Assembly (NCBI GenBank): GCA_009885525.1
Contig: VFKN01000050.1
Coordinates: 1 to 40,134, forward strand
DNA from: Anaerolineaceae bacterium
Lineage (GTDB): Bacteria > Chloroflexota > Anaerolineae > Anaerolineales > Villigracilaceae
Direction: 5' to 3'
Length of the DNA: 40,134 bases
This document shows positions 68 through 15,734 of the stretch, piece after piece. The translations under genes were made by a program, and so were the position numbers. The notes under the pieces were generated by a model. It had not been told where the DNA came from, did no database searches, and saw only the letters and a list, made by a program, of their open reading frames with translations. Position 1 is the stretch's first letter. Every line of letters begins with the position of its first letter.

Positions 68-83
68 AATGATTCTCCTATTC

Positions 84-163
84 GCCCTCACCCTCACCCT
101 AGCCCTCTCCCGAAGGGAGAGGGGACTCCCTTCCCCTTTCGGGGGAAGGGTTGGGGATGAGGG
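84..163. repeat. GC-rich double-hairpin intergenic repeat
   Basis: The gap between sdhC and the next gene is almost filled by two perfect short palindromes: CCCTCTCCC/GGGAGAGGG (103-123) and CCCTTCCCC/GGGGAAGGG (128-150), flanked by CCCTCACCC-type sequence. This looks like a REP-type dispersed element. Folded in the sdh transcript, it could stabilise the upstream mRNA or adjust expression of the last gene. Confidence 0.7.
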
Positions 164-176
164 AGCGAAGTGATAT

Positions 177-617: not shown

Positions 618-625
618 AAATACTC

Positions 626-2338: not shown

Positions 2339-2488
2339 GAACAGCGTTCTCCTCGTAAAATGATACGAAATCACCAATTTAGACTTTATTGTAGGATTTA
2401 TTCCCGCTTTCCGTTAGTGATGATTGTCATTGAATGGGGGGATGGATAGCCCAAGGATTTTATTTGATCGAATTTAACGCGGATTTAC

Positions 2489-2600
2489 TCTCTCACACGA
2501 TTTTTTCGCCACCCTGATACCGCCGGGCTGCGCCTACAAAATCGGCTCAAGCCGATTGGCACACATTCATGGGGCGTGGACATTCATGCCAGAAGCAATC
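2489..2600 (-). pseudogene. Probable vsr relic (central and C-terminal coding pieces)
   Basis: On the minus strand, 2600-2560 reads CFWHECP followed by frame-disrupted sequence, matching the CFWHGCP signature of Vsr endonucleases. The plus-strand text at 2567-2597 aligns by eye with the same part of the vsr copy at 6591-6860. A second piece at 2489-2520 closely resembles 4490-4530, where a vsr C-terminal relic also lies. Part of 2585-2615 (GTCATTGCGAGGAG reversed) could instead belong to a dispersed repeat, so this is the weakest of the vsr relics. The rest of the 2339-2703 gap holds sdhA upstream DNA, the TIR gene promoter region and nothing else I recognise. Confidence 0.45.
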
Positions 2601-2636
2601 TCCTCGCAATGACATATTCATAATGAGAGGTGCTGG

Positions 2637-2665
2637 TTATGAACACTTATGTTTCACCGTATAAT
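2637..2665 (+). promoter_or_regulatory. Candidate promoter of the TIR gene
   Basis: A perfect TATAAT (2660-2665) lies 38 bases before the ATG. A weak -35 candidate, TTATGA (2637-2642), sits 17 bases upstream. Ribosome site AAAGGA is at 2691-2696. Confidence 0.4.
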
Positions 2666-2703
2666 GACATGAATTAAACTCAACCTTGCCAAAGGAATAT
2701 TTT

Positions 2704-4377: not shown

Positions 4378-4416
4378 AATTCCCTGATTGCATTATCTAA
4401 AACGGCTTGCCCGTTT

Positions 4417-4515
4417 TTATAGCCGATTTATCAATTTCTCCGCAACTTTCTTTGGGATTTTCAACTCGCATGTAGCCGTTCGGATCTATTTCTCACACAC
4501 GATTTTTTCACCGCC
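4417..4515 (-). pseudogene. vsr relic, C-terminal coding part
   Basis: The minus strand from 4464 to 4417 encodes CELKIPKKVAEKLINRL and a stop, closely parallel to HELKITEKVTGKLRNLI at the end of the vsr copy at 6591-6860; the DNA of the two is also visibly similar. Upstream sequence to 4515 (GTGTGTGAG region) resembles the preceding vsr codons but contains an in-frame TAG and shows the frame has decayed. No start or catalytic part is present. It lies just downstream of the tetR gene end. The central part of what may be the same lost gene lies at 5955-6020, on the far side of the TetR/membrane-protein pair. Confidence 0.6.
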
Positions 4516-4522
4516 CCGATAC

Positions 4523-5095
4523 TCACGCCAGCATTGATTCGATGGCAGGCTGGGTCAACTGCTGAAAGATCGCATTCATGCGTTCAGGCGGATAGGGCAG
4601 GTCATGCTCGACCCACCAGGTGAGCAAGGCGATCAGTGAACTGGCCAGGTGATGGACAACAATTTCCAGCGGCACTTGTTTACTCGCATCCCATTGATCT
4701 TTGAGCGTTTCACGCATCAGCGCGGACAGGTATTTATGCATATGCGTGGACATGAGATTCCCACCCTGCTTCCCGACCAATGCCCGATAAACACCCGTAT
4801 AACTTTGCGCGTGCTGAAATACAACCAAACTCAAATCCCATACGCCGGCCTTCTCAACAGATTGACCCGTCAGATGCTGTTCAAACAGCGACCAGAGATT
4901 CTCGAACCCGCTCAGGAATAAATCCTCGATATCTTTGTAGTGCGAATAAAACGTGGAGCGGCCAACATTGGCGCGCTGAATGACATCCTGCACGGTGACC
5001 TTGTCGAAGCCTTTTTCGAGAATGAGTTCGATCAGCGCTGCATGCAAAACTTTACGCGTGCGTTGAATACGCCGGTCGGGGGATTCTTTTTCCAT
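4523..5095 (-). CDS. TetR/AcrR family transcriptional regulator
   Basis: This 190-residue protein has the TetR layout: a basic N-terminus (DRRIQRTRKVLHAALIELI), a helix-turn-helix around residues 32-60 (KVTVQDVIQRANVGRSTFYS, then HYKDIEDLF), and an all-helical ligand-binding region. The C-terminal part resembles the TetR_C domains typical of Firmicutes/Chloroflexi regulators. I chose the ATG at 5095 because TAGGAG lies upstream. It diverges from the membrane protein at 5398-5889, whose promoter carries a palindrome; repression of that gene and of itself is the simplest inference. The ligand is unknown. The pair lies between two pieces of a vsr relic. Confidence 0.85.
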   Translation of the reverse strand: MEKESPDRRIQRTRKVLHAALIELILEKGFDKVTVQDVIQRANVGRSTFYSHYKDIEDLFLSGFENLWSLFEQHLTGQSVEKAGVWDLSLVVFQHAQSYTGVYRALVGKQGGNLMSTHMHKYLSALMRETLKDQWDASKQVPLEIVVHHLASSLIALLTWWVEHDLPYPPERMNAIFQQLTQPAIESMLA

Positions 5096-5132
5096 CTTGT
5101 ATTCTCCTAACTTGGAAAACAACCAAAAAAAT

Positions 5133-5216
5133 TAACCACGAGGGGCACAAAGTATACGAAGTAATACAAATAAAACAGAAGGGCTTCCTTTGTGACCCTC
5201 GTGTCCTTTGTGTTTA
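5133..5216. repeat. Dispersed 'CCACGAGG...CACAAAG' inverted repeat
   Basis: The sequence contains AACCACGAGGGGCACAAAG and, in inverted orientation, GTGACCCTCGTGTCCTTTGTG, so a long imperfect hairpin can form between tetR and its divergent neighbour. A related fragment (AACCACAAAGGACACGAAG) occurs at about 39985-40012. It belongs to the window's set of dispersed intergenic repeats. Confidence 0.6.
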
Positions 5217-5296
5217 AAATGTTCTTGTTTTTTGTACAAGAATATAACTTCCAGTCTCCTCATTCCTGCACAGATCGGGCTGGAGTGTTCAGTATT

Positions 5297-5349
5297 GAAC
5301 GTTTGCGTTCGCACTGTTTGTTGACGTTTGTTCTTTCAGCCAGTATAAC
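5297..5349 (+). promoter_or_regulatory. Promoter and possible TetR operator
   Basis: A strong promoter reads TTGACG (5321-5326), a 17-base spacer, and TATAAC (5344-5349), about 50 bases before the membrane-protein ATG. Just upstream is the palindrome GAACG-TTTG-CGTTC (5297-5310), and a related half-site GTTTGTTC follows in the spacer. These are candidate operator elements for the divergent TetR protein; binding is inferred. Confidence 0.6.
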
Positions 5350-5397
5350 AAACTAAATATCGTGTTCAAAACAATTTATCGCTTTAGGAGAAAAAAA

Positions 5398-5889
5398 ATG
5401 AAAATCGAATTTGAAAACAAGTATGCGCGTTTAGCGTTGATCAGCATCACAGTGACCATGCTGATCACATCCATCCATCACGTCTACCGGCTGGGACTCG
5501 GCTTACTGATCCCCGCGCTGATTCTGACCATACTCCCTTACGCGCTGATGCGCTGGTATTCATCCTCCAAAAATGAAAACATCCTGAAAAGTTTTTCGCT
5601 CTTCAACGCGTTGATGTTCCTCTGGTTTGGATTCATCGACGGCTTTATGGATCATGTCTTCAAGGCGCTTGGCCTGCCAAACACCACATTTCTGCCCGGC
5701 AGCGATGCGGAAGTGGTCAAGACCGTCTTTTCCTTATGGTCTCCGGCGGCGAGTAACATTTTCTACGAAGGCACGGGCATATTGACGTTCGTCACTGGTG
5801 TTTTTGCGATGGTCTACGTGGTCAAGATGATCCAAACCAAACACGCGGCGGATAAAATTGCGGGACAATTGAAACCTGCGCAAAGTTAA
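5398..5889 (+). CDS. Small integral membrane protein of unknown function, TetR-linked
   Basis: The 163-residue protein has four predicted membrane segments (about residues 8-28, 33-52, 68-90 and 120-148) and short loops. I do not recognise a named family. The ATG at 5398 follows TTTAGGAG, a good ribosome site, and a well-formed promoter. A strong terminator follows the stop. The divergent TetR gene suggests that expression responds to a small molecule or stress, as for many small membrane proteins next to TetR regulators. A transporter or membrane-stress role is possible, but nothing in the sequence decides it. Confidence 0.75.
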   Translation: MKIEFENKYARLALISITVTMLITSIHHVYRLGLGLLIPALILTILPYALMRWYSSSKNENILKSFSLFNALMFLWFGFIDGFMDHVFKALGLPNTTFLPGSDAEVVKTVFSLWSPAASNIFYEGTGILTFVTGVFAMVYVVKMIQTKHAADKIAGQLKPAQS

Positions 5890-5906
5890 TCTGATCCGCT
5901 TACTAT

Positions 5907-5945
5907 AACGGGCAGGCCGAAATGGTCTGCCCGTTATTTTTTATA
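5907..5945 (+). terminator. Rho-independent terminator
   Basis: The stem AACGGGCAG / CTGCCCGTT (5907-5915 with 5927-5935) has a short loop and is followed by ATTTTTTAT. It lies 17 bases after the membrane-protein stop. Confidence 0.9.
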
Positions 5946-5954
5946 TAAATTATT

Positions 5955-6020
5955 CGCCAACTTCTCTCAAAATGGATGGTTGTTCTGCGACATATTCTCA
6001 TGGAGTGGACATCCTTGCTA
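5955..6020 (-). pseudogene. vsr relic, central coding part
   Basis: The minus strand reads, with one frame slip, GCPLHENMSQNNHPF, stop, EKLANN. The vsr copy nearby reads GCPKHANMPKNNRPF-W-EKKLQGN. The stop is TGA in place of the family's tryptophan TGG. The plus-strand DNA here aligns with 6748-6810 over about 60 bases, with most positions identical by eye. This is clearly the remains of a second vsr gene. It ends where the TetR/membrane-protein pair begins, and the matching C-terminal part appears beyond that pair at 4417-4515. Confidence 0.75.
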
Positions 6021-6030
6021 AAATACAAAG

Positions 6031-6067
6031 TAAAAAGAACTCTGAGAAAATCTCAGAGTTCTTTTTA
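6031..6067. terminator. Bidirectional terminator hairpin
   Basis: A near-perfect hairpin, TAAAAAGAACTCTGAG / CTCAGAGTTCTTTTTA with an AAAAT loop, has T-runs on both strands. It ends directly at the DUF2283 stop codon and separates the accessory genes on either side. Confidence 0.9.
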
Positions 6068-6274
6068 CTAGCCAACTAAAGGAGAGACTTGATAATCAAT
6101 CCTGCTCGGCACATTGACTCGCTGGGATGCGTCCATTATTTCCAGCGAGACTAGATTGCCTTTGTCATCATAATCCAAAATCACACCGGGCTTATCTTCG
6201 TCGCTTTCAGCAACAGGTGTTTCAGTAAAAATAATTGTCAGGGTATCGGTTTCACGATCATAAATAACTTTCAT
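6068..6274 (-). CDS. DUF2283 family protein, probable antitoxin
   Basis: This 68-residue protein has the DUF2283 pattern: an N-terminal MKVIYDRETDTLTIIF, then EDKPGVILDYDDKGNLVSLEIMDAS. The family consists of short acidic beta-rich proteins. The ATG at 6274 follows GGAGAT; a longer in-frame extension overlaps the upstream gene and is unlikely. It begins 4 bases after the stop of the DUF4258 gene, so the two are cotranscribed. DUF2283 genes are often found next to DUF4258 genes in a toxin-antitoxin-like arrangement. The antitoxin role is inferred from this pairing. Confidence 0.8.
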   Translation of the reverse strand: MKVIYDRETDTLTIIFTETPVAESDEDKPGVILDYDDKGNLVSLEIMDASQRVNVPSRIDYQVSPLVG

Positions 6275-6278
6275 GGAT

Positions 6279-6557
6279 TTATCTCCAATACTTCTCGATC
6301 TTACTTGTTCGGTAAACAGTAACAACATGCGGCGGAATACGGTCAATATCTACAAAAACACGAACAACATAGGTCTTGGGCGGCTGACTCATTTCAAGTT
6401 TTGCCTGATAGACCGCGCGCCCTTCCCGAACCAATTCCATTTGCTCAGGATTTGCCAACACATTTCTGACATCACTTTGACTGATCTCACGCCGTGCCAT
6501 TTCAGTTAAAGCATGGTCAGTAAAAATAAACTCACGAACTGGTTCGATGTTTGGCAT
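6279..6557 (-). CDS. DUF4258 family protein, probable RelE/BrnT-like toxin
   Basis: The 92-residue protein carries the DUF4258 outline: FTDHALTEMARREIS near the start, SDVRNVLANPEQ, a beta stretch GRAVYQAKLEM, and a C-terminal VVTVYRTSKIEKYW. The early histidine and the terminal YRTxKxxKYW segment are typical of this family, thought to share the small RelE-type ribonuclease fold. It is followed by DUF2283 and preceded by a perfect 19-base palindrome at its promoter, an arrangement expected for autoregulated toxin-antitoxin modules. Toxicity is not shown by the sequence. It lies between vsr relics in the accessory zone. Confidence 0.75.
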   Translation of the reverse strand: MPNIEPVREFIFTDHALTEMARREISQSDVRNVLANPEQMELVREGRAVYQAKLEMSQPPKTYVVRVFVDIDRIPPHVVTVYRTSKIEKYWR

Positions 6558-6567
6558 ATCTAGATAA

Positions 6568-6591
6568 AGTATAGCACTAAAATTTAGTGCT
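6568..6591 (-). promoter_or_regulatory. Palindromic operator and -10 box of the DUF4258/DUF2283 pair
   Basis: A perfect palindrome, AGCACTAAA-A-TTTAGTGCT (6573-6591), abuts a minus-strand TATACT (complement of 6568-6573) 11 bases before the DUF4258 ATG. It is well placed for autorepression by the encoded complex. No good -35 is seen. Confidence 0.5.
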
Positions 6592-6860
6592 CATTCGTCT
6601 TTTTCATGGATTAAATTTCTCAACTTCCCCGTAACTTTCTCCGTGATTTTCAACTCATGCTCCCACACACGGACAACTTTCCAGCCCAACTTCCGCAACT
6701 CGCGATTCACAAACTGATCCCTGACCTTATTCCCCTGCAGTTTCTTCTCCCAAAATGGACGGTTGTTTTTGGGCATATTGGCATGTTTGGGACAGCCATG
6801 CCAGAAACAGCCATCCACAAATAAGGCGAGTTTTTGCTTGGGAAAGACAAAGCCTAGCAC
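6591..6860 (-). pseudogene. vsr: Very short patch repair endonuclease (Vsr), 5'-truncated
   Basis: The 89 codons encode the C-terminal two thirds of a Vsr endonuclease: FVDGCFWHGCPKHAN, NNRPFWEKK, GNKVRDQFVNRELRKLGW, VVRVWEHEL. Vsr nicks beside T in T:G mismatches made when 5-methylcytosine deaminates. Family members are usually 130-150 residues. Here the N-terminal region is missing, including the PDxVF catalytic aspartate: the sequence reads VLGFVFP where PDFVFP is expected, and an in-frame TAA lies six codons upstream of the only available GTG. It is therefore probably inactive. It is the last cistron of the methyltransferase island, 47 bases after the nuclease gene. Confidence 0.8.
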
Positions 6861-6907
6861 AATTTCTGTGTCGCCTTAAATGGTTTAGTTCGGTATCATT
6901 TTATATT

Positions 6908-7351
6908 TTACTGCCCTTCTGCTTTAATCCACTCAATATATGTTGATGAATCAAATTCTTCTACCCCATATTTGGAAGGATAAATACCTGAACGAGAAAA
7001 TAATGAAAATAACATCTTCAACCACGAGTGAGCATTTTCTCCTTTGTTATGGCATATAGCAAACACTATTTTTCTATTATTACTGTTTGATAAGAACAAA
7101 GACAGCCATGTGACATAATTGAGCAATCTTTCTTGCGTGAAAATAGAGTTAGGCGACTCCGTGTTTTTTGCATCGCCTATAAAAAGTATGTCTGATTTTG
7201 TGTTTATCCGTATAACGTCTGGTCGTGTTGCGTCGGGTAGGTGGCTATCCAAACTTTGGGCACAGCCAAGCATGATAGCCATGGTGTCCAGAAACTTTAC
7301 AAGTCTTTCATGTTCATCAAGCCGAGAACTTAAGTTGTAAGCATTAATCAT
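6908..7351 (-). CDS. Small PD-(D/E)XK nuclease-like protein of the defence island
   Basis: This 147-residue protein carries a readable PD-(D/E)XK active site: an early helix with HERLVKF, RPDVIRIN (Asp45), and ILFIGDAKNTE (Asp60 and Lys62) on adjacent strands, followed by helices. This is the layout of type II-like restriction nucleases and related enzymes. The ATG at 7351 follows GGAGATAAAT and overlaps the end of the ATPase gene by 8 bases (ATGATTAA), so translation is likely coupled. A longer in-frame start at 7384 is less likely. I infer that it is the DNA-cutting subunit working with the SNF2-type ATPase. Base composition is AT-rich like the rest of the island. Confidence 0.75.
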   Translation of the reverse strand: MINAYNLSSRLDEHERLVKFLDTMAIMLGCAQSLDSHLPDATRPDVIRINTKSDILFIGDAKNTESPNSIFTQERLLNYVTWLSLFLSNSNNRKIVFAICHNKGENAHSWLKMLFSLFSRSGIYPSKYGVEEFDSSTYIEWIKAEGQ

Positions 7352-9128
7352 ATTTATCTCCAAAGATTTTTTTTGCTTCTTCAAGTTCGGTCAACATAAT
7401 TTCTCTAGTTAGATGGTGTTCTTCTTTATCGCCCAACAAATCATGCGCCATTTGCTCTTTATCCATCAGGCGTTCATATTCAGGGACTTCAATGGTCCCT
7501 TCTGAAAGCAAAACTATATATTCAACATTTTCGGTTTGTCCTCTACGATGAATACGGTCTAGACTTTGTAAGTAGTGCGCCGCTTGGTTGGACATTGATT
7601 CGTAAATTGCAATATGTGAACGGTGCAATGTAATACCTGCGCCAGCAGCAGCAGGATTCCCAACGAACATCATTGTTGTGGAATCTGACTGAAAATTTCT
7701 AATAGCATTTCTGCGTTCGTCAACTGAAGAAACTGCACCATCATAGCGTACAGGATTATATTTTTTATATCGTTCATAAATTGTACTCAGCGAGTGGGTA
7801 TAAAATGACCAAAGCACCACTTTTTGATTTCTATTTTCAATAACCTCACTAAGTAACTCGTCTAAAACTTCTAGTTTTGAAGGTGTTTCTGTGTAACCTT
7901 CGACTAAACGTGCCGGGTTTGAACAGATTTGGAGTAAAGCATTCCTTTTTGCCAAGAAGGATGTAATCTGTTTATTAAAACCTTGGTCATTTGTTACCTG
8001 TAAATCTAGAATCAATCCATCTAGAGCCGATTTATACAACCTTTGCTGAACTGGGTTTAGGGAAACCAATATTCTGTTAAATCTTTTTGAGGGCAAATCT
8101 GGCATGACCTGTGACTTCATATGGCGAATATAGATTCCACTGTTTTCTATAGCATTTTGAATAATTGGGTGAGCAGATTCTCTGTCGTCAGGGATATCAA
8201 GCCCGTCAAACGTCAAACCATAATCAACAATATTGAATTGTTGAATAAGGTCGTGCGGTGAATTTGGAGCCGGCGTTCCGCATAAGACAAAGGCCCGGCC
8301 ACAATATTCTCTTGTACGTCTTAACGCACGCGTCCTTTTGGCATTAAGGCTTTTTATAAAAAAAGATTCGTCAACAACCAAGACAGCGCGTTTTTCATAT
8401 CGAAGAATTAACGACCGTATTTCATCTTCTAACAAAACTATCGTTTCAAAATTTGTAACTAAGATGTCAGCACCTGAAGAAAGGGCTTTTGTTTTCTGTA
8501 TTTTATCTCCAGTGATAATTTCTATTTTATACAAATCGCCCATAAATCTCTGGAAATCATCCTTCCATTCAGAAACCATACTTTTAGGAGCAACAATTAA
8601 AGCAAAATCCGCTTGATTTTTTTCAAACAATATGTCAAAAGCATGTATAAAAGTAACTGTCTTTCCAGCTCCTTGCTCGTCAAAAACACACATACCAAAG
8701 GAATCTGGCAATGTCATGGCGGCGACATTTACCCATTGGTGATTATCGAGCCTGCTAAGTCGATCGCTGTGCGTTGCTAAAGCCATTTTTGCTACTTTTA
8801 CATCTCCAGCAATTAATTTCGAGACACAATCTCTCAATTTAGGATATATATTTTTTGCGTCTCGCCTATTTGCAACAAATAGGCGAGCATCTTGAGACCA
8901 ATGAACATCAAAAAAATTATCTAAGGATTCTAGTAAACTTGATTGGTTTGAAGGTATAGCCATTCCGATGGTGTAATTTCTTGTTATTATCTCAGGATAT
9001 TGTTGTTGAATAGTTCGGAGTAACTCTAAACGATCATTTTTATCTCGTGGCGTAATTAATATGCTATCAAGCATTTCCGATGTCCGGACATCAACAACAA
9101 TTCTGTGAGGCGAATGACTATTCAACAT
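7344..9128 (-). CDS. SNF2-type superfamily 2 ATPase/helicase
   Basis: The 594-residue protein has an N-terminal region of about 130 residues without a recognised domain, then two RecA-like lobes. Lobe 1 contains motif I (DEQGAGKT, 150-157), motif Ia (IVAPKSMVSEW), motif II (VVDESF, DESF at 253-256) and motif III (LCGTPAPNSP, from 282). Lobe 2 ends with DRIHRRGQ (524-531), close to the SNF2 motif VI. Such proteins translocate on double-stranded DNA. Its ATG overlaps the stop of the ParB-like gene (TAATG), and its own stop overlaps the nuclease start, so the three are translationally coupled. A role as motor for the small nuclease is inferred. Confidence 0.88.
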   Translation of the reverse strand: MLNSHSPHRIVVDVRTSEMLDSILITPRDKNDRLELLRTIQQQYPEIITRNYTIGMAIPSNQSSLLESLDNFFDVHWSQDARLFVANRRDAKNIYPKLRDCVSKLIAGDVKVAKMALATHSDRLSRLDNHQWVNVAAMTLPDSFGMCVFDEQGAGKTVTFIHAFDILFEKNQADFALIVAPKSMVSEWKDDFQRFMGDLYKIEIITGDKIQKTKALSSGADILVTNFETIVLLEDEIRSLILRYEKRAVLVVDESFFIKSLNAKRTRALRRTREYCGRAFVLCGTPAPNSPHDLIQQFNIVDYGLTFDGLDIPDDRESAHPIIQNAIENSGIYIRHMKSQVMPDLPSKRFNRILVSLNPVQQRLYKSALDGLILDLQVTNDQGFNKQITSFLAKRNALLQICSNPARLVEGYTETPSKLEVLDELLSEVIENRNQKVVLWSFYTHSLSTIYERYKKYNPVRYDGAVSSVDERRNAIRNFQSDSTTMMFVGNPAAAGAGITLHRSHIAIYESMSNQAAHYLQSLDRIHRRGQTENVEYIVLLSEGTIEVPEYERLMDKEQMAHDLLGDKEEHHLTREIMLTELEEAKKIFGDKYD

Positions 9129-10660
9129 TATTTTTTTGCCCTTTTTTCTAGCGCAGGTTTCACAAGCCTTTCCGCTAACTTCAAAGCATCAAGCAGCTTT
9201 TGCAGACTCTCGGTACTAACTTCATCTGGCTTGCTAAATGACCCGATTGGGAGTTTTTCCAACCAGTTAACGAAAGTTCTAATTCGTTGATCCGCCCCTA
9301 CAACTCGGGCTTCTTTGCTTCTAACCCTCGCATCGCCTAGCAATTTCTCCACATAATCTTCCGTGTCTTCATCGGCCGGCATGTTAAGTGCTTTTGCAAG
9401 CTGGTCACGATCCTCTAAACCTACATATCGCAAGTCTCGTATCAGAGACCAATTTTTGATTTTATCTTGAAACAATAAATCAAAAACCAATTTTTTCAGC
9501 TTTTCATCTCGGTCTAAAATATACGAAACACCATTCTCACTAATAGCACCTTTAGATAGCTCGTCAAAGTATTGGAATTTTTCATTCGCCTTGTGCTTAA
9601 CTTCAAATTCTTCAATATTCTTTTCAACAATTAAATAATCTTCAAAACTTGTTGCCCACTCTACCATTTTGATATACCTATTAACTTTATCGGCTCTGGT
9701 ACCAAGCGCGAATTTCGATGATAGATCGCGCTTCATTTCTCTTTCGCGTTCAGGACTTGGACGGCGAGGTTCTGTTGAAAGCATAGTTTGCCATTGGTCA
9801 TAAACCTTCCGTGCTTTGACATATTCTGGCCAAGCCTTCTTTAGATCTTCCTCAAAATTCAAAGAGACGATAACAGACTCTCGATCTTCATCAGTAGCAT
9901 GTTCAGTGAGCTGGTGGACAAACAAATACTCAACTTTACGTTTTTGTTCCGAATCAAAGTCTTCACTGTTCAAAATATAATAGCAAGCAGTTACTCGTCG
10001 ATTACCATCTAAGAGAGTACCATCAGTATCAATTATGGGTGGTACACGAACACCATTAATAGCGATACTTTCGGCTAGCGCTATGATATTAAACTCATCG
10101 TCTTTCCCAATTCCGGGGAGCTTGTTATTACTAAGCATCAATTCTAAAAGCTCGTTAGCGTCAGGGCTTCTTCCAAATTTATTTCGAAACTGTCCCAAGT
10201 GAATATCTAACCTGATATTATCTTCCCAAAGGTCAATATCTGTGGTCTTCACGTAACCACAATTCATAGGGACTTCCCGCATATGAAAGCGACGCGTAGG
10301 CTTGACAGGTCCTGGTTGAATGCTATTGCGAGATAGTAATTCGATTTTTTTCTTTTTATTCACGGTTACAGATCCTTTTTCCTTAATGTTATAAGCAGGT
10401 CTCTTGCTTAAAATTACATCAACAATTTGATTAATATCACCATCTAAATTTTCTAAAGTCACGCTATCCCCTTTTTTTTCCGCTGACTTACGGATGTAGG
10501 TGATTGCTTTTCGCAAAAGATTACGCTCTTTGTTTATATCTAGTGGATTTTCCATACCTTCTTTAAGGATTTTCTCGACTTGCTTTCCTGTATCAAGGGA
10601 AACCTTATACGCCTCTTCAACCAAGGAAAGAAATGCTTCTTCATTTTTTAGAGTTGACAT
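9128..10660 (-). CDS. ParB/Srx-fold protein of the defence island
   Basis: This 510-residue protein contains a ParB N-terminal-like domain at about 135-260: DIDLWEDNIRLD, then ALAESIAINGVRVPPII and DGTLLDGNRRVTACYYI. The DGNRR (218-222) corresponds to the GxRR nucleotide-binding motif of ParB/sulfiredoxin-fold proteins. The flanks are charged and helical, with no clear ParB helix-turn-helix. Because no parA is present and the gene sits in a restriction-like operon, chromosome partition is unlikely. CTP-dependent sliding or DNA nicking, both known in the wider fold, are possible. The ATG follows AGGAGG, 9 bases after the sigma-like gene, and the stop overlaps the ATPase start. Confidence 0.78.
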   Translation of the reverse strand: MSTLKNEEAFLSLVEEAYKVSLDTGKQVEKILKEGMENPLDINKERNLLRKAITYIRKSAEKKGDSVTLENLDGDINQIVDVILSKRPAYNIKEKGSVTVNKKKKIELLSRNSIQPGPVKPTRRFHMREVPMNCGYVKTTDIDLWEDNIRLDIHLGQFRNKFGRSPDANELLELMLSNNKLPGIGKDDEFNIIALAESIAINGVRVPPIIDTDGTLLDGNRRVTACYYILNSEDFDSEQKRKVEYLFVHQLTEHATDEDRESVIVSLNFEEDLKKAWPEYVKARKVYDQWQTMLSTEPRRPSPEREREMKRDLSSKFALGTRADKVNRYIKMVEWATSFEDYLIVEKNIEEFEVKHKANEKFQYFDELSKGAISENGVSYILDRDEKLKKLVFDLLFQDKIKNWSLIRDLRYVGLEDRDQLAKALNMPADEDTEDYVEKLLGDARVRSKEARVVGADQRIRTFVNWLEKLPIGSFSKPDEVSTESLQKLLDALKLAERLVKPALEKRAKK

Positions 10661-10669
10661 TTGTGCCTC

Positions 10670-11371
10670 CTACTCAAGATTGCTCAGTAATTCATCGTCA
10701 GATTCATCCTTAAGATGAAGGAAATCAAAGGGTCGCTGAGTGATATTCTCTTTAATGGCTAGCTCAGACAACCTGTTAAAGCCTCTATATAAACGATCTC
10801 GCACTGTTCTTAGACTTAGTCCAAAAGTATCTGCGATTTCTTGGTTCTCAAGGGTATCAACCCCTTTTTCTGCGGCAGAAATAACATAACTCAAAACATC
10901 TCGAACGCTTTGGGACTTAATTTTCGGTAGTAAAACTCTAGCTACTTTTATTGCTTCAATACGCATTATTTCTCGTTCGTCTAAGTCTTCTACCTCATTT
11001 TTTTCGAAGTCGCGTCCTAATGATTTATCTTGCAGGGTATTTTCAACATCATTCAGGTCTATTTTTCTTTTGGCTCTACGATAATACTCATGGGCTTTAA
11101 AATCTGCAGTTTTCCACAAGTATCCCATCGGGTTGGGGTTGGCCTTGCCTTGTCTAACATGATAAAAAAGTTCATCAATTGAAAAGCAAATAATATCTGA
11201 AAGGTCTTCATCGTCAATTACTCGCCATCGCGCACGCAATCGTGATACCAGGCCACTGATTGCTTTCTCTTGACTTAAAGTTGCTAAAAGAGAGACAGGG
11301 TCACCACGAGAAGCTGCATCTTGAACCGCAATTTTTATTCTAGTTAAAATTTCTTCATGTTCTTTATCCAT
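10670..11371 (-). CDS. Sigma-70 family (ECF-like) protein in the defence operon
   Basis: The 233-residue protein has a sigma region 2-like segment (about 40-105: VIDDEDLSDIICFSIDELF, MGYLWKTADFKAHEYYRRAKR). A sigma region 4-like helix-turn-helix follows at 174-205 (LENQEIADTFGLSLRTVRDR, then LYRGFNRL). An acidic linker joins them, and a 30-residue tail follows. It resembles extracytoplasmic-function sigma factors, but there is no anti-sigma gene. The ATG follows GGAGAG. It could direct polymerase to the island's own promoter, or act as a DNA-binding adaptor. Two copies of a partly palindromic 22-base repeat lie directly upstream. I know of no standard restriction system with its own sigma factor, although family assignment beyond the fold is uncertain. 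Confidence 0.75.
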   Translation of the reverse strand: MDKEHEEILTRIKIAVQDAASRGDPVSLLATLSQEKAISGLVSRLRARWRVIDDEDLSDIICFSIDELFYHVRQGKANPNPMGYLWKTADFKAHEYYRRAKRKIDLNDVENTLQDKSLGRDFEKNEVEDLDEREIMRIEAIKVARVLLPKIKSQSVRDVLSYVISAAEKGVDTLENQEIADTFGLSLRTVRDRLYRGFNRLSELAIKENITQRPFDFLHLKDESDDELLSNLE

Positions 11372-11389
11372 CTACTCTCCTTCATACAT

Positions 11390-11500
11390 AAGTGTTAGGC
11401 GTCGCACTTAAATTTATATTGAAATCAAATTGCACGATTCTGCATAAAGTTTTACCCAAATTTTCAATCTCTATATATAAGTGCCAGGCGTCGCACTTAA
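11390..11500. repeat. Pair of 22-base, partly palindromic direct repeats upstream of the sigma-like gene
   Basis: Copies at 11390-11411 and 11479-11500 differ at only two bases. Each has outer arms AAGTG and CACTT around AGGCGTCG. Their starts are 89 bases apart, in the 193-base gap before the sigma-like gene. They may be operators or promoter elements for a protein of the island, or a dispersed genomic repeat. Confidence 0.7.
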
Positions 11501-11501
11501 C

Positions 11502-11538
11502 ATAGAAACAGGCTGGTTTTTCACCAGCCTGTTTCTAT
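11502..11538. other. 15-bp perfect hairpin after the methyltransferase gene
   Basis: ATAGAAACAGGCTGG and CCAGCCTGTTTCTAT (11502-11516 and 11524-11538) flank a 7-base loop, 27 bases past the methyltransferase stop. There is no T-run after the stem on the minus strand, so it is a weak terminator candidate. It may attenuate or process the transcript between the first gene and the downstream four. Confidence 0.6.
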
Positions 11539-11564
11539 ACTGCCTCTAATTTATTGCTATGATT

Positions 11565-13547
11565 TTATGTTTGTTTGCCAAAATCACAATTTTTCTTCAA
11601 AATACACTTTTCGCAGTTAGGTTTTATTGCAAAACATACTTGTTGCCCATGAGAAAGTAAATTTACGTGGTATTTATACCGGTCATCGGGGTCAACTGCT
11701 TTTTCCAATTCATCATGGACACGACTTGTAGGCAAATTGATAGAAATAAAACCTATCCTTCGTGAAATTCTATCTATATGTGTATCCACGGGGAGAACTT
11801 TCCTGTCTAACGAATACATCATGACGCATTTAGCAGCTTTTGTGCCAATACCAGGCAAGGAAATTAGAAACTCTTCTACTTGTTTGTCATGCATATCGCG
11901 CAAAGGCTCCAGACTCACTTCTCCAAACTCTTTCTTTATTTTTTTCAGGATTGAGATCAGTCGAGGGGCCTTTTGGTGGCTAAGCCCAGCGTCTTTTATC
12001 TTTGTAGCCAGTTGTTTTGGCGTGAGATTCAAAAGTTTTGACCAATCGCTGAACTCTTCTTTCAATCGGTCATAGACTCTAGAATAACTTGGGCCAGTAG
12101 TCATTAAAGAAAGCAAGATAAAAACTAATTCATCGAGAGGGTTACTTTTATTGTTATGGTCTGGAGATTTATATTCCTTATGCAAAATCTCTACAACCTC
12201 GTGTGTCTTTACCCGAAGGAGTTGATTCTCCTTTGAAATGCTAAGGTTCTTGATAAATTCAACAACATCACCTCGTTTCCTACCACTTTCGCCAAACCAT
12301 TGCCCCGCTGTTTCTCCTTTCGGATCGTTCCGCATTTCAGGGGGATTAAGGAACGTAGTTGGCCTTTGAGCCATATTGTCTAGAATCTTGGGGGTTTCAC
12401 ACACAATTAAACCGAGTTTGTCAGGTGATTTTAGTTTAGGGTTCATTGATTTAATCAATGCTTTCCCAATGGCTTCTCCTAGCCCAACTGGTACAGCATT
12501 GCCAATTTGCATATATTTATTTGAAAGACTCCCAGAGAAAATCCAATTGTCAGGGAATTGTTGTATCCTTGCATATTCTTTTAAAGATAAGGGCCTTGCA
12601 ATAGTTGGATGGCATAACATAGTTGCTCTGCCATTTGGGTTTGTAGTTAATGCTGGGCTAGGCTCACTCCACGATAAGCGGCGTAAAAAACCACTGCGTC
12701 CACCCCAAGAGTTATAAGCACCACCGATTGCCTTTTTCTGGGAGCGCTTAGGCAGGTCATGCCAGTTCCCACCCTCAGGTATCATTTCTAAATACTTTAT
12801 TTGTTCATCCGTGAATGCTCTATATTCAGGCTTTTTGTCGTTAAGTCCGTGTAGACTATCTTTAAGAGTTGTCCACTTTTTCCGAAGTCCAGTGCCATTT
12901 TTATTATGTGTTGGAAAAGGCAACCTAAGCGGTTCGCCATCGCGAGAGCCTACAATGATTAACCTTTCTCGTTTTTGCGGAACGCCAAAATCTGCAGAGT
13001 TTAGCAATCCAAAGTTAATGTAATAACCCGTTTTTTGTAATTCTTTTAATATTTCCTTAAAGCCTGAACCTAACTCCTCGTCTGGAGATAAGTGCGGGAA
13101 CCCAGGGCCGCGTTGATTAAGAGGGCGATGCCTTATTGCAGCCGATAATATTCCTTTGACATTCTCCATAATAAAGAATCGGGGTTTTGCTTCATTAATT
13201 ATTCTAATATATTGAACAAACAGATTCCCGCGTGGATCGCCAAGTGAAGCGCGACTCCCTGCTGTACTAAAAGTTTGGCAAGCAGGGCCACCAGTAACTA
13301 ATGTAACTTCACCAACTTTAAGGCCACATTGCTCCAAGATTTCTTTGGTTTTTACTTCATGAATATCGCGATCAATCACATGAATATTTTTGCTGTTTTT
13401 CAGCCGTTTTTTATTATTCTCTATAGTCGAAGCTGCATATTTATCATTTTCAATAGCAACACAAATAGAAAAGCCGGCTCGATCCAAGCCGATGTCAAGC
13501 CCTAATGCCCCAGAAAACAAAGATATAGCTGTTAGTTTTTTAGTCAA
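11565..13547 (-). CDS. Cytosine-5 DNA methyltransferase fused to an endonuclease III-type DNA glycosylase
   Basis: Residues 1-365 form a complete C5 methyltransferase: FSGALGLDIGL (motif I, from 11), GGPACQTFS with catalytic Cys90 (IV), MENVKG (VI), QKRERLIIVG (VIII, 191-200), a target-recognition region about 205-320, and QIGNAVP (X, 347-353). After a linker, residues about 430-660 form a HhH-GPD glycosylase of the Nth family: LPGIGTKAA (564-572; Lys570 matches Nth Lys120), VDTH (Asp588 matches Nth Asp138), and an iron-sulfur loop Cys638-X6-Cys-X2-Cys-X5-Cys654. One enzyme thus both makes 5mC and could remove its T:G deamination product. The start is TTG with GAGG upstream. First gene of the island. 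Confidence 0.92.
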   Translation of the reverse strand: MTKKLTAISLFSGALGLDIGLDRAGFSICVAIENDKYAASTIENNKKRLKNSKNIHVIDRDIHEVKTKEILEQCGLKVGEVTLVTGGPACQTFSTAGSRASLGDPRGNLFVQYIRIINEAKPRFFIMENVKGILSAAIRHRPLNQRGPGFPHLSPDEELGSGFKEILKELQKTGYYINFGLLNSADFGVPQKRERLIIVGSRDGEPLRLPFPTHNKNGTGLRKKWTTLKDSLHGLNDKKPEYRAFTDEQIKYLEMIPEGGNWHDLPKRSQKKAIGGAYNSWGGRSGFLRRLSWSEPSPALTTNPNGRATMLCHPTIARPLSLKEYARIQQFPDNWIFSGSLSNKYMQIGNAVPVGLGEAIGKALIKSMNPKLKSPDKLGLIVCETPKILDNMAQRPTTFLNPPEMRNDPKGETAGQWFGESGRKRGDVVEFIKNLSISKENQLLRVKTHEVVEILHKEYKSPDHNNKSNPLDELVFILLSLMTTGPSYSRVYDRLKEEFSDWSKLLNLTPKQLATKIKDAGLSHQKAPRLISILKKIKKEFGEVSLEPLRDMHDKQVEEFLISLPGIGTKAAKCVMMYSLDRKVLPVDTHIDRISRRIGFISINLPTSRVHDELEKAVDPDDRYKYHVNLLSHGQQVCFAIKPNCEKCILKKNCDFGKQT

Positions 13548-13594: not shown

Positions 13595-13638
13595 AACACT
13601 TGCGCTAGGTCCATGCAGATAAAACTTCTGCTATAACC

Positions 13639-13780
13639 AAAAAGCGGACAGCCTTTCGGCTGACTGAGATTTGTGCTGGCGGGCTAAATCCAAGGTTTTT
13701 CAGCCCTCTTTATTGCATAAATAGATCCAATGTAGCTCCCATCGAGCTCCCATCGAGGTCTCATCGAGCTCCCATCAGCC
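13639..13780. repeat. Decayed hairpin cassette and 11-base tandem repeats in a gene-free gap
   Basis: In the gap 13548-13903 there is no gene. At 13639-13669 lies AAAAGCGGACAGCC with a right arm that no longer pairs, a decayed copy of the terminator cassettes at 13854, 14678 and 15677. At 13734-13780 the unit AGCTCCCATCG is repeated about four times with changes. A GGGCT/AGCCC hairpin lies at 13681-13705. Confidence 0.65.
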
Positions 13781-13853
13781 TCAATTGAACTACACAACCA
13801 TACTCGGCGACAGGTTACTCTCCCGTTTTACCTCGCACTACTCCGTTCTTACC

Positions 13854-13896
13854 AAAAAGCGGACAGCCTCGCGACTGTCCGCTTTTCATTTCACAA
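13854..13896 (-). terminator. Terminator cassette copy 1 (after HEPN gene)
   Basis: AAAAGCGGACAG / CTGTCCGCTTTT with an 8-base loop, then CATTTCACAA. On the minus strand it follows the HEPN gene stop and ends in a T-run. The flank and stem recur almost identically at 14678-14721 and 15677-15720. Confidence 0.85.
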
Positions 13897-13903
13897 ACCT
13901 TAC

Positions 13904-14287
13904 CTACTTGACTCCGAGTTTCTTTCGGATGAATTTCCGCACACGTTCAGCGGCATCAAACGCAGATTCTGCAACCTCTACCGAAGCGCTTGCGCCGGGG
14001 TAACGGATGGCAACAGCATAACGTTCAAGGCTTTTCAAGTCTGCTTCAAGTTTCTCGAAACCTTTATCAATTTGGACGCATAAATCAAGAAGCGGAAGCA
14101 TATCGTGTTTACGTTCAAAGCGAACTGCATGGTCCTGCAAAAATGCCTTCAAATACTTTTCAGCGCATTGCTGGCAATGAAACGAAGCCGTACTTGCAAG
14201 CGGGATTTCCACAGTATGCAAAAGAGCATCGGCGCTGTGAAAATCCTCCTCAGCCTTTGAGACCCACTCGCTGGTTACTTCGTTCAT
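13904..14287 (-). CDS. HEPN domain protein, probable toxin of an MNT/HEPN module
   Basis: The 127-residue protein is a typical HEPN helical bundle: WVSKAEEDFHSADALL, FHCQQCAEKYLKAFL, then RFERKH (Arg56-X4-His61), matching the RX4-6H ribonuclease motif, followed by DMLPLLDLC and a C-terminal helix VRKFIRKKL. The chosen ATG at 14287 overlaps the end of the MNT gene by 38 bases; a slightly longer start exists. In characterised pairs the HEPN protein is an RNase toxin that the MNT nucleotidyltransferase inactivates by adding AMP near the active site. This pair probably works the same way. It ends in a strong terminator. Confidence 0.85.
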   Translation of the reverse strand: MNEVTSEWVSKAEEDFHSADALLHTVEIPLASTASFHCQQCAEKYLKAFLQDHAVRFERKHDMLPLLDLCVQIDKGFEKLEADLKSLERYAVAIRYPGASASVEVAESAFDAAERVRKFIRKKLGVK

Positions 14288-14639
14288 ACAGCACCTTTCC
14301 CTTTTCAGTAATATCAATCAAAAACCAGTCATGCAATTTCTTCCGTCTTTCAATGACCTCCCGTGACCGGACAACAACATCCACATGAAATGATATCTTT
14401 GGAAGCGACTTCATGACAGCAAGTGATGTTTCAAATTCACCCATTGGCGTATCCATCACCACCAGCAAGTCCACATCGCTCCATGCGGTTGGTTTCCCAT
14501 ACGCATGAGAGCCGAACAAAACGATCTGCTCCGGGTCGAATTTCTCCGCAATATGCTTGGCAATCGCGCGAATGGTTTTCATCGGAATACGCCTGCGCTT
14601 ATTGATCGGCGGAACTTGGAATACAGTCTGTGTAACCAT
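14250..14639 (-). CDS. Minimal nucleotidyltransferase (MNT), antitoxin partner of HEPN
   Basis: The 129-residue protein contains the nucleotidyltransferase signature FGSHAYGKPTAWSDVDLLVV: Gly43-Ser44 and the metal-binding Asp55 and Asp57, with a third acidic residue in SFHVDVVV. It belongs to the MntA-like family that AMPylates HEPN toxins. Two starts are possible: the ATG at 14639 and an internal ATG at 14582 (MKTIRAIAK), which is closer to the usual family start. A perfect -10 box placed 6 bases before 14639 suggests a leaderless transcript from the longer start. The 3' end overlaps the HEPN gene, so the pair is coupled. Confidence 0.85.
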   Translation of the reverse strand: MVTQTVFQVPPINKRRRIPMKTIRAIAKHIAEKFDPEQIVLFGSHAYGKPTAWSDVDLLVVMDTPMGEFETSLAVMKSLPKISFHVDVVVRSREVIERRKKLHDWFLIDITEKGKVLYERSNQRVGLKG

Positions 14640-14645
14640 ACTTGG

Positions 14646-14651
14646 ATTATA
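14646..14651 (-). promoter_or_regulatory. -10 box positioned for a leaderless MNT transcript
   Basis: A minus-strand TATAAT (complement of 14646-14651) lies 6 bases before the ATG at 14639, so transcription would begin at or next to the A of ATG. No ribosome site precedes this ATG. The -35 is not clear. Confidence 0.4.
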
Positions 14652-14677
14652 CGATATTTTTCAAACTCGAAATTAAC

Positions 14678-14721
14678 AAAAAAGCGGACAGCCGAGAGGC
14701 TGTCCGCTTTTCATTTCACAA
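14678..14721 (-). terminator. Terminator cassette copy 2 (after AbiEii-like gene)
   Basis: AAAAGCGGACAGCC / GGCTGTCCGCTTTT with a GAGA loop, then CATTTCACAA. It follows the AbiEii-like stop on the minus strand and ends in a T-run. Confidence 0.9.
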
Positions 14722-14722
14722 T

Positions 14723-15406
14723 TTATTTCTTCACCGATTTGTCCATAAGTTTTACCGCCCAATCCAAAAAAGTTTTTTTAAGTATGCGCGGATCAAAAGG
14801 TTTAAGAATTTTTATGGGCCAGCGTTCAATTTCGTCGGGGAAATTCTCGCACCGATTTAAAGCGATGGCAAACCAATAAAGATCAAAACCTGTATCTTTT
14901 TGCGCGGCTTGTTCAAGTAATTGATCGGGCGATTCGTTCTGCATAATGAAATACAAGTCCACTGCATCACGCGGCTCGGCACGCCCAAAATAAGCCAGCA
15001 ATTTGTCCGTGCTTAAATCCGGATAATCATTGATGTAGATGCCTTCATTCGAAAATACAGGAGATTGAAACCGATAAGGCGAATCAAGCGCCAGGTCTAT
15101 TTTCAAACTCTCATCGTTTTTCTCCACCAAAAGTTCGACAAATGTCGAAAAGCGGCGGACTACTTTGAGCGAAAGTCCCTTTTTCTGGCAGGCAGTTTCA
15201 ATTTGATAAGATAACGGCAGGATGAGATTTTCGGTACCAGTGAAATAATCAAGATCAAACGAAAGACGGTGACCGAGGTAATATTCCGAAAGCGCAGTCC
15301 CACCGGCGAGATAGAATTGATTCTTGTCAGGCAGGCTGGCAAGAATTTCCATAAAATCTTTTTGGATGGGGGATAGCGTACCAAATCCCTTAACGATCTC
15401 TGCCAT
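14723..15406 (-). CDS. Nucleotidyltransferase AbiEii/AbiGii-family toxin
   Basis: The 227-residue protein has the DUF1814/AbiEii pattern: FYLAGGTALSEYYLGHRLSFDLDYF (residues 31-55, with GGTALS and the two aspartates in FDLDYF), a later LKIDLALDSPYRF strand, and LSTDKLLAYFGRAEPRDAVDLYF, the conserved K...R..DxxDLY block. In AbiE systems this nucleotidyltransferase is the toxin, for example by adding nucleotides to tRNA. Start ATG follows GGAG. It overlaps the small upstream gene by 17 bases; that gene is not an AbiEi-type regulator but is likely its partner. A terminator follows the stop. Confidence 0.88.
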   Translation of the reverse strand: MAEIVKGFGTLSPIQKDFMEILASLPDKNQFYLAGGTALSEYYLGHRLSFDLDYFTGTENLILPLSYQIETACQKKGLSLKVVRRFSTFVELLVEKNDESLKIDLALDSPYRFQSPVFSNEGIYINDYPDLSTDKLLAYFGRAEPRDAVDLYFIMQNESPDQLLEQAAQKDTGFDLYWFAIALNRCENFPDEIERWPIKILKPFDPRILKKTFLDWAVKLMDKSVKK

Positions 15407-15623
15407 TTAAATACTCCAAATATCGCCGCCACAGGCTTTCGATCTCTTTTGGCAAATCCAACTGATCAAGTTCCTGCTTAATATCCGCAAGTTGGAGCGC
15501 GCGGATATCCTCCGCCCTGCCATGTATCAATGTTTGACGCAACAGCCAGCGTTTTTGGAACGGATCACTTAAGTTAATTGTGTCCGTGCTCCAGACCAGA
15601 TGACGGGGGGGATGTACGATCAT
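15390..15623 (-). CDS. Small protein, probable antitoxin partner of the AbiEii-like gene
   Basis: The 77-residue protein begins MIVHPPRHLVWSTDTINLSD and continues with RWLLRQTLIHGRAEDIRALQL and LPKEIESLWRRYLEYL. I recognise this pattern (PRHLVW, PFQ-RWLLRQ-LIHGRAEDIR) as a small protein often found directly upstream of AbiEii-type genes in environmental bacteria, but cannot name a characterised function. It overlaps the AbiEii-like start by 17 bases, so the two are coupled. No clear ribosome site is seen. A short upstream reading frame (ATG at complement of 15641-15643, seven codons) ends across this ATG, which could couple initiation. An antitoxin role is inferred from order and overlap. Confidence 0.65.
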   Translation of the reverse strand: MIVHPPRHLVWSTDTINLSDPFQKRWLLRQTLIHGRAEDIRALQLADIKQELDQLDLPKEIESLWRRYLEYLNGRDR

Positions 15624-15676
15624 GATATTAAAAATATTACCATGAATTCTTCTGAAACCAGCAATTGCTTAAAATC

Positions 15677-15720
15677 AAAAAAGCGGACAGCCTCTCGGCT
15701 GTCCGCTTTTCATTTCACAA
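15677..15720 (-). terminator. Terminator cassette copy 3 (after icd)
   Basis: AAAAGCGGACAGCC / GGCTGTCCGCTTTT with a TCTC loop, then CATTTCACAAAATT. It follows the icd stop. The same cassette ends the two upstream toxin-antitoxin modules. Confidence 0.9.
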
Positions 15721-15734
15721 AATTATCTTTCTAT

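Follow-up and report, generated by a model that had tools for sequence, protein, structure and literature searches.

On a contig of 40,134 nucleotides (nt) from an Anaerolineaceae bacterium of the phylum Chloroflexota (assembly GCA_009885525.1, VFKN01000050.1; this whole stretch is called the window below), a compact set of genes of about 6.6 kb probably encodes a restriction-modification system of the translocase type, its SNF2 motor and nuclease being loaded or guided by a ParB/KorB-like clamp. The set lies on the minus strand and comprises, from 5′ to 3′, genes for a methyltransferase-glycosylase fusion, a sigma-like protein, a ParB-like protein, an SNF2-family ATPase and a small PD-(D/E)XK-like nuclease candidate, followed by a remnant of vsr. 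This reading was reached from sequence comparison and structure prediction. The set recurs in nine distinct loci (the window, L005, L010, L012, L013, L016, L018, L019 and L055), which come from two Chloroflexota families and from IMG/VR contigs. The features of the window locus are the following:

11565..13547, minus strand: fusion of a C5 methyltransferase and an HhH-GPD glycosylase, 660 amino acids (aa), recognised by Pfam, NCBIfam, PDB matches and motifs
11502..11538, minus strand: perfect 16-bp inverted repeat, terminator-like, between the methyltransferase and sigma genes
11473..11500, minus strand: upstream copy of a 28-nt direct repeat with a dyad (AAGTG...CACTT), operator-like
11384..11411, minus strand: second, downstream copy of this repeat, 12 nt away from the start codon of the sigma-like gene
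10670..11371, minus strand: protein resembling sigma factors of the extracytoplasmic function (ECF) type, 233 aa, from weak NCBIfam and profile matches
9128..10660, minus strand: ParB/KorB-like protein, 510 aa, from PHROGs, an AlphaFold2 model and structure search
7344..9128, minus strand: SNF2-family ATPase, 594 aa, from Pfam and alignments
6908..7351, minus strand: PD-(D/E)XK-like small nuclease candidate, 147 aa, from motif and model
6591..6860, minus strand: vsr remnant lacking its N-terminal part, outside the recurring set, matching TIGR00632 positions 52-119

Genes for the methyltransferase, the ParB-like protein and the SNF2 ATPase are found in all nine loci, a nuclease candidate in eight, and all five components in four. 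The ParB gene is directly upstream of the SNF2 gene in every locus, with an overlap or a gap of at most 18 nt in the eight in which both gene ends are fixed. The searches that yielded these loci used ParB or SNF2 as queries, not the methyltransferase or the nuclease, and seven of the nine came from wider scans covering IMG/VR and Chloroflexota genomes. Moreover, the identity matrices of ParB, SNF2 and methyltransferase across the nine loci correlate with each other (0.93, 0.91 and 0.83; Mantel test, none of 5000 permutations as high in each case). Because it recurs in nine loci with correlated identities, the set is not a chance neighbourhood. Against this recurrence, the idea that unrelated mobile genes came together by chance in a defence island, which would suit a mosaic, AT-rich block adjoining repeats and a truncated vsr, is barely credible. 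Whether the five genes recur as a block was the question put by a first-pass annotation, made from the letters of the window alone: all five do so in four loci, and the core of methyltransferase, ParB, SNF2 and nuclease candidate does so in eight; the sigma-like gene and the glycosylase, each present in five of the nine loci, proved optional.

Most of what the first-pass annotation had seen of the layout stood as well. The five open reading frames (ORFs) are all present on the minus strand, and their junctions are close: 9 nt separate the sigma and ParB genes, ParB and SNF2 overlap by 1 nt, and SNF2 and nuclease by 8 nt, ATG at 7351 being a more likely start of the nuclease gene than TTG at 7384. 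The block is AT-rich, with a guanine-cytosine (GC) content of 38.8% versus 49.6% (window 1-6000) and 51.8% (15701 to the end) on either side, and GC is about 39% in both copies from the genus (window and L005) versus 50-53% in the flanks measured, which for L005 are the left 4.6 kb only. The proposal of a single operon is doubtful: the methyltransferase and sigma genes are 193 nt apart, and this spacing contains the 16-bp hairpin and the two 28-nt direct repeats, 89 bp apart. As the terminator-like hairpin splits the methyltransferase from the other four genes, two transcription units are probably present. Consensus scans for promoters and terminators returned no more than in shuffled sequence, and the 16-bp hairpin was not listed. 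The vsr after the block is indeed damaged: in comparison with an intact Vsr of 150 aa its alignment begins only at about residue 65, and its N-terminal part is therefore missing. Vsr was considered as a member of the set and rejected; it was not found in the eight other set loci within the stretches scanned, and among all loci scanned it is present only in the window and in L014, a phage contig with a terminase gene in which an intact vsr directly precedes a ParB-like gene with the DGNRR motif described below, without SNF2 (L014, 134-1715).

Around the ParB-SNF2 core, the composition and order of the genes vary. A further genome of the genus (G047, locus L005) carries the whole block, with identities to the window of 90% for the methyltransferase-glycosylase, 48% for the sigma, 78% for ParB, 80% for SNF2 and 82% for the nuclease; its upstream neighbours differ from those of the window and include an rve-type transposase/integrase gene. 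L012 carries a methyltransferase, a separate glycosylase, sigma, ParB, SNF2 and nuclease, followed by an MmeI-type gene. In L013, sigma, ParB, SNF2 and nuclease are accompanied by a glycosylase and a methyltransferase on the other strand and then by a serine recombinase, and in L016 sigma, ParB and SNF2 face a convergent methyltransferase 15 nt from SNF2. L018 and L019, with identities to each other of 79-95%, encode a methyltransferase, a protein of 273-275 aa, ParB and SNF2, together with a nuclease candidate of larger size; the terminase, portal and head genes of L018 mark it clearly as a phage contig. L055 contains a relative of this 273-275-aa protein, ParB, SNF2, a nuclease candidate and a methyltransferase. 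L010, from another Chloroflexota family, has ParB, SNF2 and a nuclease candidate together with a divergent protein with an XRE-type helix-turn-helix (HTH), a methyltransferase and a separate glycosylase. A glycosylase in L016 was rejected after a marginal match to the L010 glycosylase turned out to be to its HTH tail. As a separate observation, a protein of 273-321 aa takes the place of the sigma gene before ParB in L018 (8137-8958), L019 (8140-8967) and L055 (6528-7490); the copies in L018 and L055 have no Pfam match above cut-off, nor does the one in L018 match any PADLOC model.

The ParB-like protein is an unusual component to find beside cutting machinery. It consists of a fast-evolving helical N-terminal extension (about residues 1-115), a ParB/Srx domain with the motif DGNRR at 218-222, and an HTH region. 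Its name comes from a PHROGs match to ParB (E 1e-4) and from its model, and that of the nuclease from motif and model, no match to Pfam, PADLOC or NCBIfam having been found for either protein; the labels methyltransferase, glycosylase and SNF2, also given by the first-pass annotation, are confirmed by Pfam. The AlphaFold2 model of the ParB-like protein, computed with 8 sequences (predicted local distance difference test, pLDDT, 76; predicted template modelling score, pTM, 0.57), begins with a bundle of helices; a stretch of low confidence follows near 91-103, and after it come the ParB/Srx domain and further helices. The six best rows of a Foldseek search with this model are ParB or Spo0J chains (E 0.006-0.09), and structural realignment places KorB (8qa9) first, with Z 9.6 and a root-mean-square deviation (rmsd) of 4.0 over 202 aligned residues (model 133-453). 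All ranks to 17 belong to the ParB superfamily (ParB, Noc, Spo0J, pNOB8 ParB, PadC and sulfiredoxin), and the first unrelated chain has Z 5.3. The rmsd is 8-12 in several of these rows, and a common arrangement can produce Z values below about 8; the KorB/ParB match therefore draws on the consistency of the list. The predicted fold supports a ParB of the clamp type, not an isolated ParB/Srx nuclease domain, and so lends the earlier suggestion of a DNA clamp some support. ParB, KorB and Noc are clamps that depend on cytidine triphosphate (CTP), and the window protein is likewise predicted to combine an N-terminal ParB/Srx domain with an HTH; it differs from them in its DGNRR motif, its extra N-terminal helical domain and its SNF2 partner. 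The usual clamp motif of ParB, which binds CTP, is GERR or of the GERRxRA type, and in close homologues of the window protein LDGNRR is conserved, with N for E. A plasmid partition gene (ParABS) was considered and rejected, no ParA being found among the ten proteins scanned at 6.6-15.6 kb. Nicking by the ParB-like protein is a possibility raised by analogy, because ParB-superfamily proteins of conflict systems are discussed as nucleases or nucleoside triphosphatases in the accessible portions of two papers (PMC5512222, PMC10853773).

The pairing of ParB with SNF2 is also found outside the set. A search with SNF2 returned records from phages (1637) and plasmids (426), none of which reached 60% identity, and the two plasmid records that were examined, L008 and L009, both carry ParB-like genes beside SNF2. 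L009, from Enterococcus lactis, has one ParB-like gene, assigned by its DGNRR motif and position only and with no match in Pfam or PADLOC, and its neighbour is a restriction-modification system of type I. Neither the L008 nor the L009 stretch gave a match to a C5 methyltransferase, so that the core of ParB and SNF2 may extend beyond the set with the methyltransferase. As to L008 itself (5235-10365, Bradyrhizobium p187_1), SNF2 is accompanied by three consecutive ParB-like genes and a small nuclease-like ORF, with neighbours annotated as radical SAM, DGQHR-domain and ATP-binding; this is possibly a related defence locus.

The persistence of this pair bears on the part played by the sigma-like protein and by the repeats in front of its gene. 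The sigma-like protein has a weak Pfam match to sigma region 4, below the curated cut-off, and its best NCBIfam match, CAS_III-E_sigma (4e-5, residues 41-204), is to the sigma family of type III-E CRISPR and stands, like sigma70-ECF (4e-5), under the cut-off. A profile of four homologues matches SigW weakly at 59-205 (E 0.009) and CnrH at 53-203; the top row of this profile search is a 22-residue stretch of an unrelated CAP-repeat chain. The 21-bp core of the 28-nt repeat, with up to three mismatches, occurs twice in the 4.1-Mb assembly (89% complete), both times upstream of the sigma gene, and a reversed control occurs nowhere. The sister locus L005 has a perfect 11-bp hairpin at the equivalent place and one element that looks related to the 28-nt repeat (AAGTGAGACACC), and in L012 the sigma gene is preceded by two 21-nt repeats at a distance of 70 bp; a search of stretches of L016, L010 and L018 gave no comparable repeats. 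From this arrangement we infer that the ParB-SNF2-nuclease operon would be separately promoted and autoregulated. The same repeats would also suit a different division of labour, in which SNF2 and nuclease restrict alone, and the ParB-like and sigma-like proteins only regulate expression at the two 28-nt repeats, the one as a KorB-like repressor and the other as an ECF sigma. That the repeat core is confined to this one promoter, that L012 repeats the pattern and that the best structural match of the ParB-like protein, KorB, is titled a transcriptional repressor all agree with such a role; however, ParB remains directly upstream of SNF2 where no sigma was found (L010, L018, L019 and L055), ParB-like genes stand beside SNF2 in L008 and L009 too, and three loci lack the repeats in the stretches searched. 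Since the pairing persists without a matched sigma or methyltransferase, a shared machine fits better than a promoter-specific regulator, and we regard the purely regulatory role as rather unlikely.

The N-terminal regions of these proteins vary together with the sigma gene. Between the window and L005, identity is 48% in the sigma, 58% in the ParB extension and 46% in the N-terminus of SNF2, versus 84-89% in the rest of ParB and SNF2. The ParB extension is found in all five loci that have a sigma gene, where the DGNRR motif starts at residue 217-231, and in none of the other four, where the motif starts at 105-115; as the five sigma-bearing loci group by identity, one event may account for this link between sigma and extension. 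That the ParB extension acts as an anti-sigma or binds a partner is a guess. This guess enters a more elaborate model, which we consider unlikely though worth stating, in which a ParB-type sliding clamp would load on unmethylated DNA and recruit SNF2 and nuclease, and its N-terminal domain would hold the ECF sigma as an anti-sigma factor, so that loading would both cut the DNA and release a sigma that boosts the operon.

The methyltransferase part of the fusion protein (about residues 1-375; Pfam DNA_methylase, E 4e-65) presents motifs I, IV, VI, VIII and X in order, as FSGALGL at 11, GGPACQ at 86, ENVKG at 128, QKRERL at 191 and GNAVP at 349, and the motifs are recognisable in eight of the nine loci. 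It is joined by a linker to the glycosylase part (about residues 450-655; Pfam HhH-GPD, E 2e-9), in which the features expected of an HhH-GPD member are found: K570 and D588, which we take to be the lysine and aspartate of bifunctional glycosylase/lyase enzymes, and the iron-sulphur cysteines CX6CX2CX5C. The fusion protein matches NCBIfam MonDNAglycDR2438 at 3e-40, under the family cut-off. The fusion reported by the first-pass annotation exists in the window and is seen in one further locus, that is, in two of nine. The best PDB match of the window glycosylase is Endonuclease III 8a5c (9e-38), presumably of Deinococcus origin; ROS1 (8e-20), Endonuclease III 2abk (1e-16) and the G-T mismatch repair enzyme 1kea (2e-12), which we take to be MIG.MthI, are also among the matches. 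The L010 glycosylase is encoded by a separate gene, has a tyrosine at the position of the lysine and matches 1kea best (E 3e-43); in the L012 glycosylase the fourth iron-sulphur cysteine was not seen. A search with the glycosylase domain at E 1e-20 returned seven plasmid records, none covering 80% of the domain.

MIG.MthI and Vsr repair deaminated 5-methylcytosine beside C5 methyltransferases. The set resembles these arrangements in that the L010 glycosylase is closest to 1kea and a vsr remnant adjoins the window block, and it differs in that the window glycosylase is Endonuclease III-like, keeps the lysine and is fused to the methyltransferase. Because two different glycosylases adjoin the methyltransferase, each of them optional, the glycosylase is, by this analogy, best read as serving the repair of deaminated methylcytosine and not as an effector, and the vsr remnant would fit the same need. 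We consider it very improbable that the glycosylase is instead an effector or eraser, acting in base-excision restriction or in the removal of 5-methylcytosine by a fusion that both writes and erases the mark: the fusion to the writer in two loci, the presence of the 5-methylcytosine glycosylase and apurinic/apyrimidinic lyase ROS1 among the PDB matches, and K570 and D588, residues in keeping with a glycosylase/lyase, would suit it, but a glycosylase is recognised in fewer loci (five) than the nuclease candidate (eight), the match to Endonuclease III is far stronger than that to ROS1, and the L010 counterpart is MIG-like.

The presumed restriction side starts with the SNF2 protein, which matches Pfam SNF2-rel_dom (2e-23) and Helicase_C (4e-9) and whose N-terminal 125 residues are fast-evolving according to segment identities. 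The nuclease candidate has the motif RPDV...DAK (D45, D60 and K62), conserved as RPDV...(D/E)AK in four of four homologues; in its model (pLDDT 85) the motif sits at the strands 46-50 and 55-62. The only nuclease-like row noticed in the fold search is the arenavirus endonuclease 5lts (Foldseek rank 32, E 0.04). L010, L018, L019 and L055 carry a different nuclease candidate with the motif D...E(I/V)K, which is larger in L018 and L019, and we infer that the two groups may be interchangeable nucleases.

The enzyme classes of the set are shared with several known defence systems, none of which it matches in full, as the first-pass annotation had supposed and as comparison with PADLOC-DB 2023 shows. 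Among the six window proteins scanned, the sigma, ParB and nuclease proteins match no model of this database, and only the methyltransferase, SNF2 and Vsr match, to models of many systems (considering the best 25 of 64 methyltransferase rows and the best 25 of 27 SNF2 rows). DISARM (class 2), Dpd, Zorya (ZorD) and BREX type 3 (BrxHII) likewise place an SNF2-type motor beside modification or nuclease genes, and the generic matches of the window SNF2 core and methyltransferase are to ZorD, DpdE, DrmD, HmaA, BrxH, DrmMII and DruM; however, only the shared enzyme classes and Vsr match, and the window SNF2 is lean. Among the PADLOC matches listed for the six proteins there is no DrmA, DrmB or DrmC of DISARM, no PglZ or BrxC of BREX, and no HsdS or HsdR of type I restriction-modification. 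What a restriction-modification system in general would contain, a methyltransferase with a motor and a nuclease candidate, does recur together, in eight of the nine loci. In type III-E CRISPR (CASP), according to the accessible portion of its description, Csx30 inhibits an ECF-like sigma and sigma motifs occur in the promoters of the locus itself (PMC10028731). This system, whose sigma family is the best NCBIfam match of the window protein, though below the cut-off, differs from the set in that no Cas7-11, Csx29 or Csx30 is present among the window proteins scanned. The ParB-like proteins of L008 match the models PD-Lambda-5_A (3e-5 and 1e-3) and PDC-M38A (6e-6) weakly, and the window ParB matches neither. 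PD-lambda-5 is apparently a compacted prophage version of a system combining restriction-modification and abortive infection, as far as the accessible text of its report goes (PMC9519451); as a parent family of the set it was rejected, the genome of the window having its own, strong match to PD-Lambda-5_A on another contig (G000:C148:3646-4494, E 2e-35). Overall, no named system was matched in PADLOC-DB 2023, Pfam, NCBIfam, PHROGs or the open-licence PubMed Central (PMC) literature, the set is not described in that literature as searched for ParB together with SNF2 or restriction, and it does not figure in the accessible portions of PMC12839542, PMC10853773, PMC3710099, PMC5512222, PMC2292703, PMC9519451 and PMC10028731.

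Where the set occurs bears on whom it serves. It is found in two of 101 relatives, the genome of the window counted, and in one of 41 genomes, that of the query itself, in the class of G172; a single-sequence scan of genome contigs gave one locus. An SNF2 scan of IMG/VR yielded ten loci, six of them in the set, and the other four (L056-L059, 21-28% identity) have no other component; a later ParB scan returned no locus beyond those known, and the window ParB alone had no match in IMG/VR. With a looser ParB profile, 39 of 400 Chloroflexota genomes matched at E 0.1; the matches beyond three real loci were rejected as generic ParB, being short and mostly limited to about 40 residues round DGNRR. 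In 27 such generic loci, two ORFs matched queries, ParB-like queries only, each stretch covering no more than 2.6-3.2 kb and thus little of the neighbourhood. The position of L018 among terminase, portal and head genes, and of L013 and L005 beside a serine recombinase and the rve-type gene, respectively, would suit a competition module of mobile elements or phages, which would use the same biochemistry for superinfection exclusion or protection of its own DNA and not for host defence. We consider this quite improbable for the set, since toxin-antitoxin-like genes adjoin the window block on its contig of 40 kb, and no match was found for the ParB of the window (E limit 1e-5) or of L010, L012 and L016 (1e-3) among 72,556 plasmids, or for that of L014 and L018 (1e-3) among 50,697 phage records; the ParB-like genes that do occur on plasmids, in L008 and L009, are distant.

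In the favoured reading of a clamp-assisted translocase, the set would be a mobile system resembling restriction-modification, in keeping with the HEPN, nucleotidyltransferase and AbiEii genes beside the window block, the MmeI-type gene next to L012, the serine recombinase next to L013, the phage genes of L018 and the low GC content. The C5 methyltransferase would mark a host sequence, as its motifs suggest. The ParB/KorB-like protein would be the subunit of restriction that engages DNA, binding it through its HTH and perhaps closing as a nucleotide-gated clamp, and it would load or guide the SNF2 translocase, which in turn would bring the small nuclease to unmethylated DNA. The glycosylase, whether fused or encoded nearby, would repair the T:G mismatches left by deaminated 5-methylcytosine, a job done elsewhere by Vsr or MIG.MthI. 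The sigma-like protein would switch on its own ParB-SNF2-nuclease operon apart from the methyltransferase, so that protection could precede restriction.

Several observations weigh against this reading. The presence of ParB and SNF2 in every locus is partly selection, because all loci were found via one or the other; the set is rare (three of 400 Chloroflexota genomes, that of the window counted), and ParB relatives occur outside it, e.g., in L014. The only strong dyad repeats sit at the sigma promoter, which would also suit a ParB acting as a KorB-like repressor. The PD-(D/E)XK fold of the nuclease candidate was not recovered by the fold search, which returned mainly methyltransferases and IF3 with Z below 7, and the two nuclease groups do not align by profile, each profile being shallow with four sequences. 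In L016 neither a nuclease nor a glycosylase was recognised in 15.1 kb, and in the L010 methyltransferase EEV replaces ENV and GQATP replaces GNAVP.

In the window, the genes next to the block (13904-15623) are a pair for a HEPN protein and a nucleotidyltransferase and an AbiEii-type gene preceded by a small ORF, and the DNA of the AbiEii region is shared at 74-78% with the relatives G029, G017 and G034. Four copies of a palindromic repeat of 36-44 nt (AAAAAGCGGACAGCC...GGCTGTCCGCTTTT; 13627-15721) separate the HEPN/nucleotidyltransferase pair from the AbiEii module. The core of this repeat has seven matches in the window versus an expectation of 0.08, and other contigs of the genome contain partial copies according to BLAST; these repeats are possibly module-spacing hairpins of a cassette-like island. 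On the other side, at 6068-6557, two small overlapping ORFs of the minus strand match DUF4258 (4e-9) and DUF2283 (7e-18), which we take to be a possible toxin-antitoxin-like pair.

If the favoured reading is true, restriction would have recruited, as one of its working parts, a clamp of the ParB type, a kind familiar from the partition of chromosomes and plasmids and from repression by KorB. This would be a new way for restriction to engage DNA and would connect nucleotide-gated clamps with immunity in a way that can be tested. The set, which occurs in phage as well as bacterial contigs, would then be a further defence family, of which PADLOC-DB 2023 recognises the methyltransferase and SNF2 domains only.

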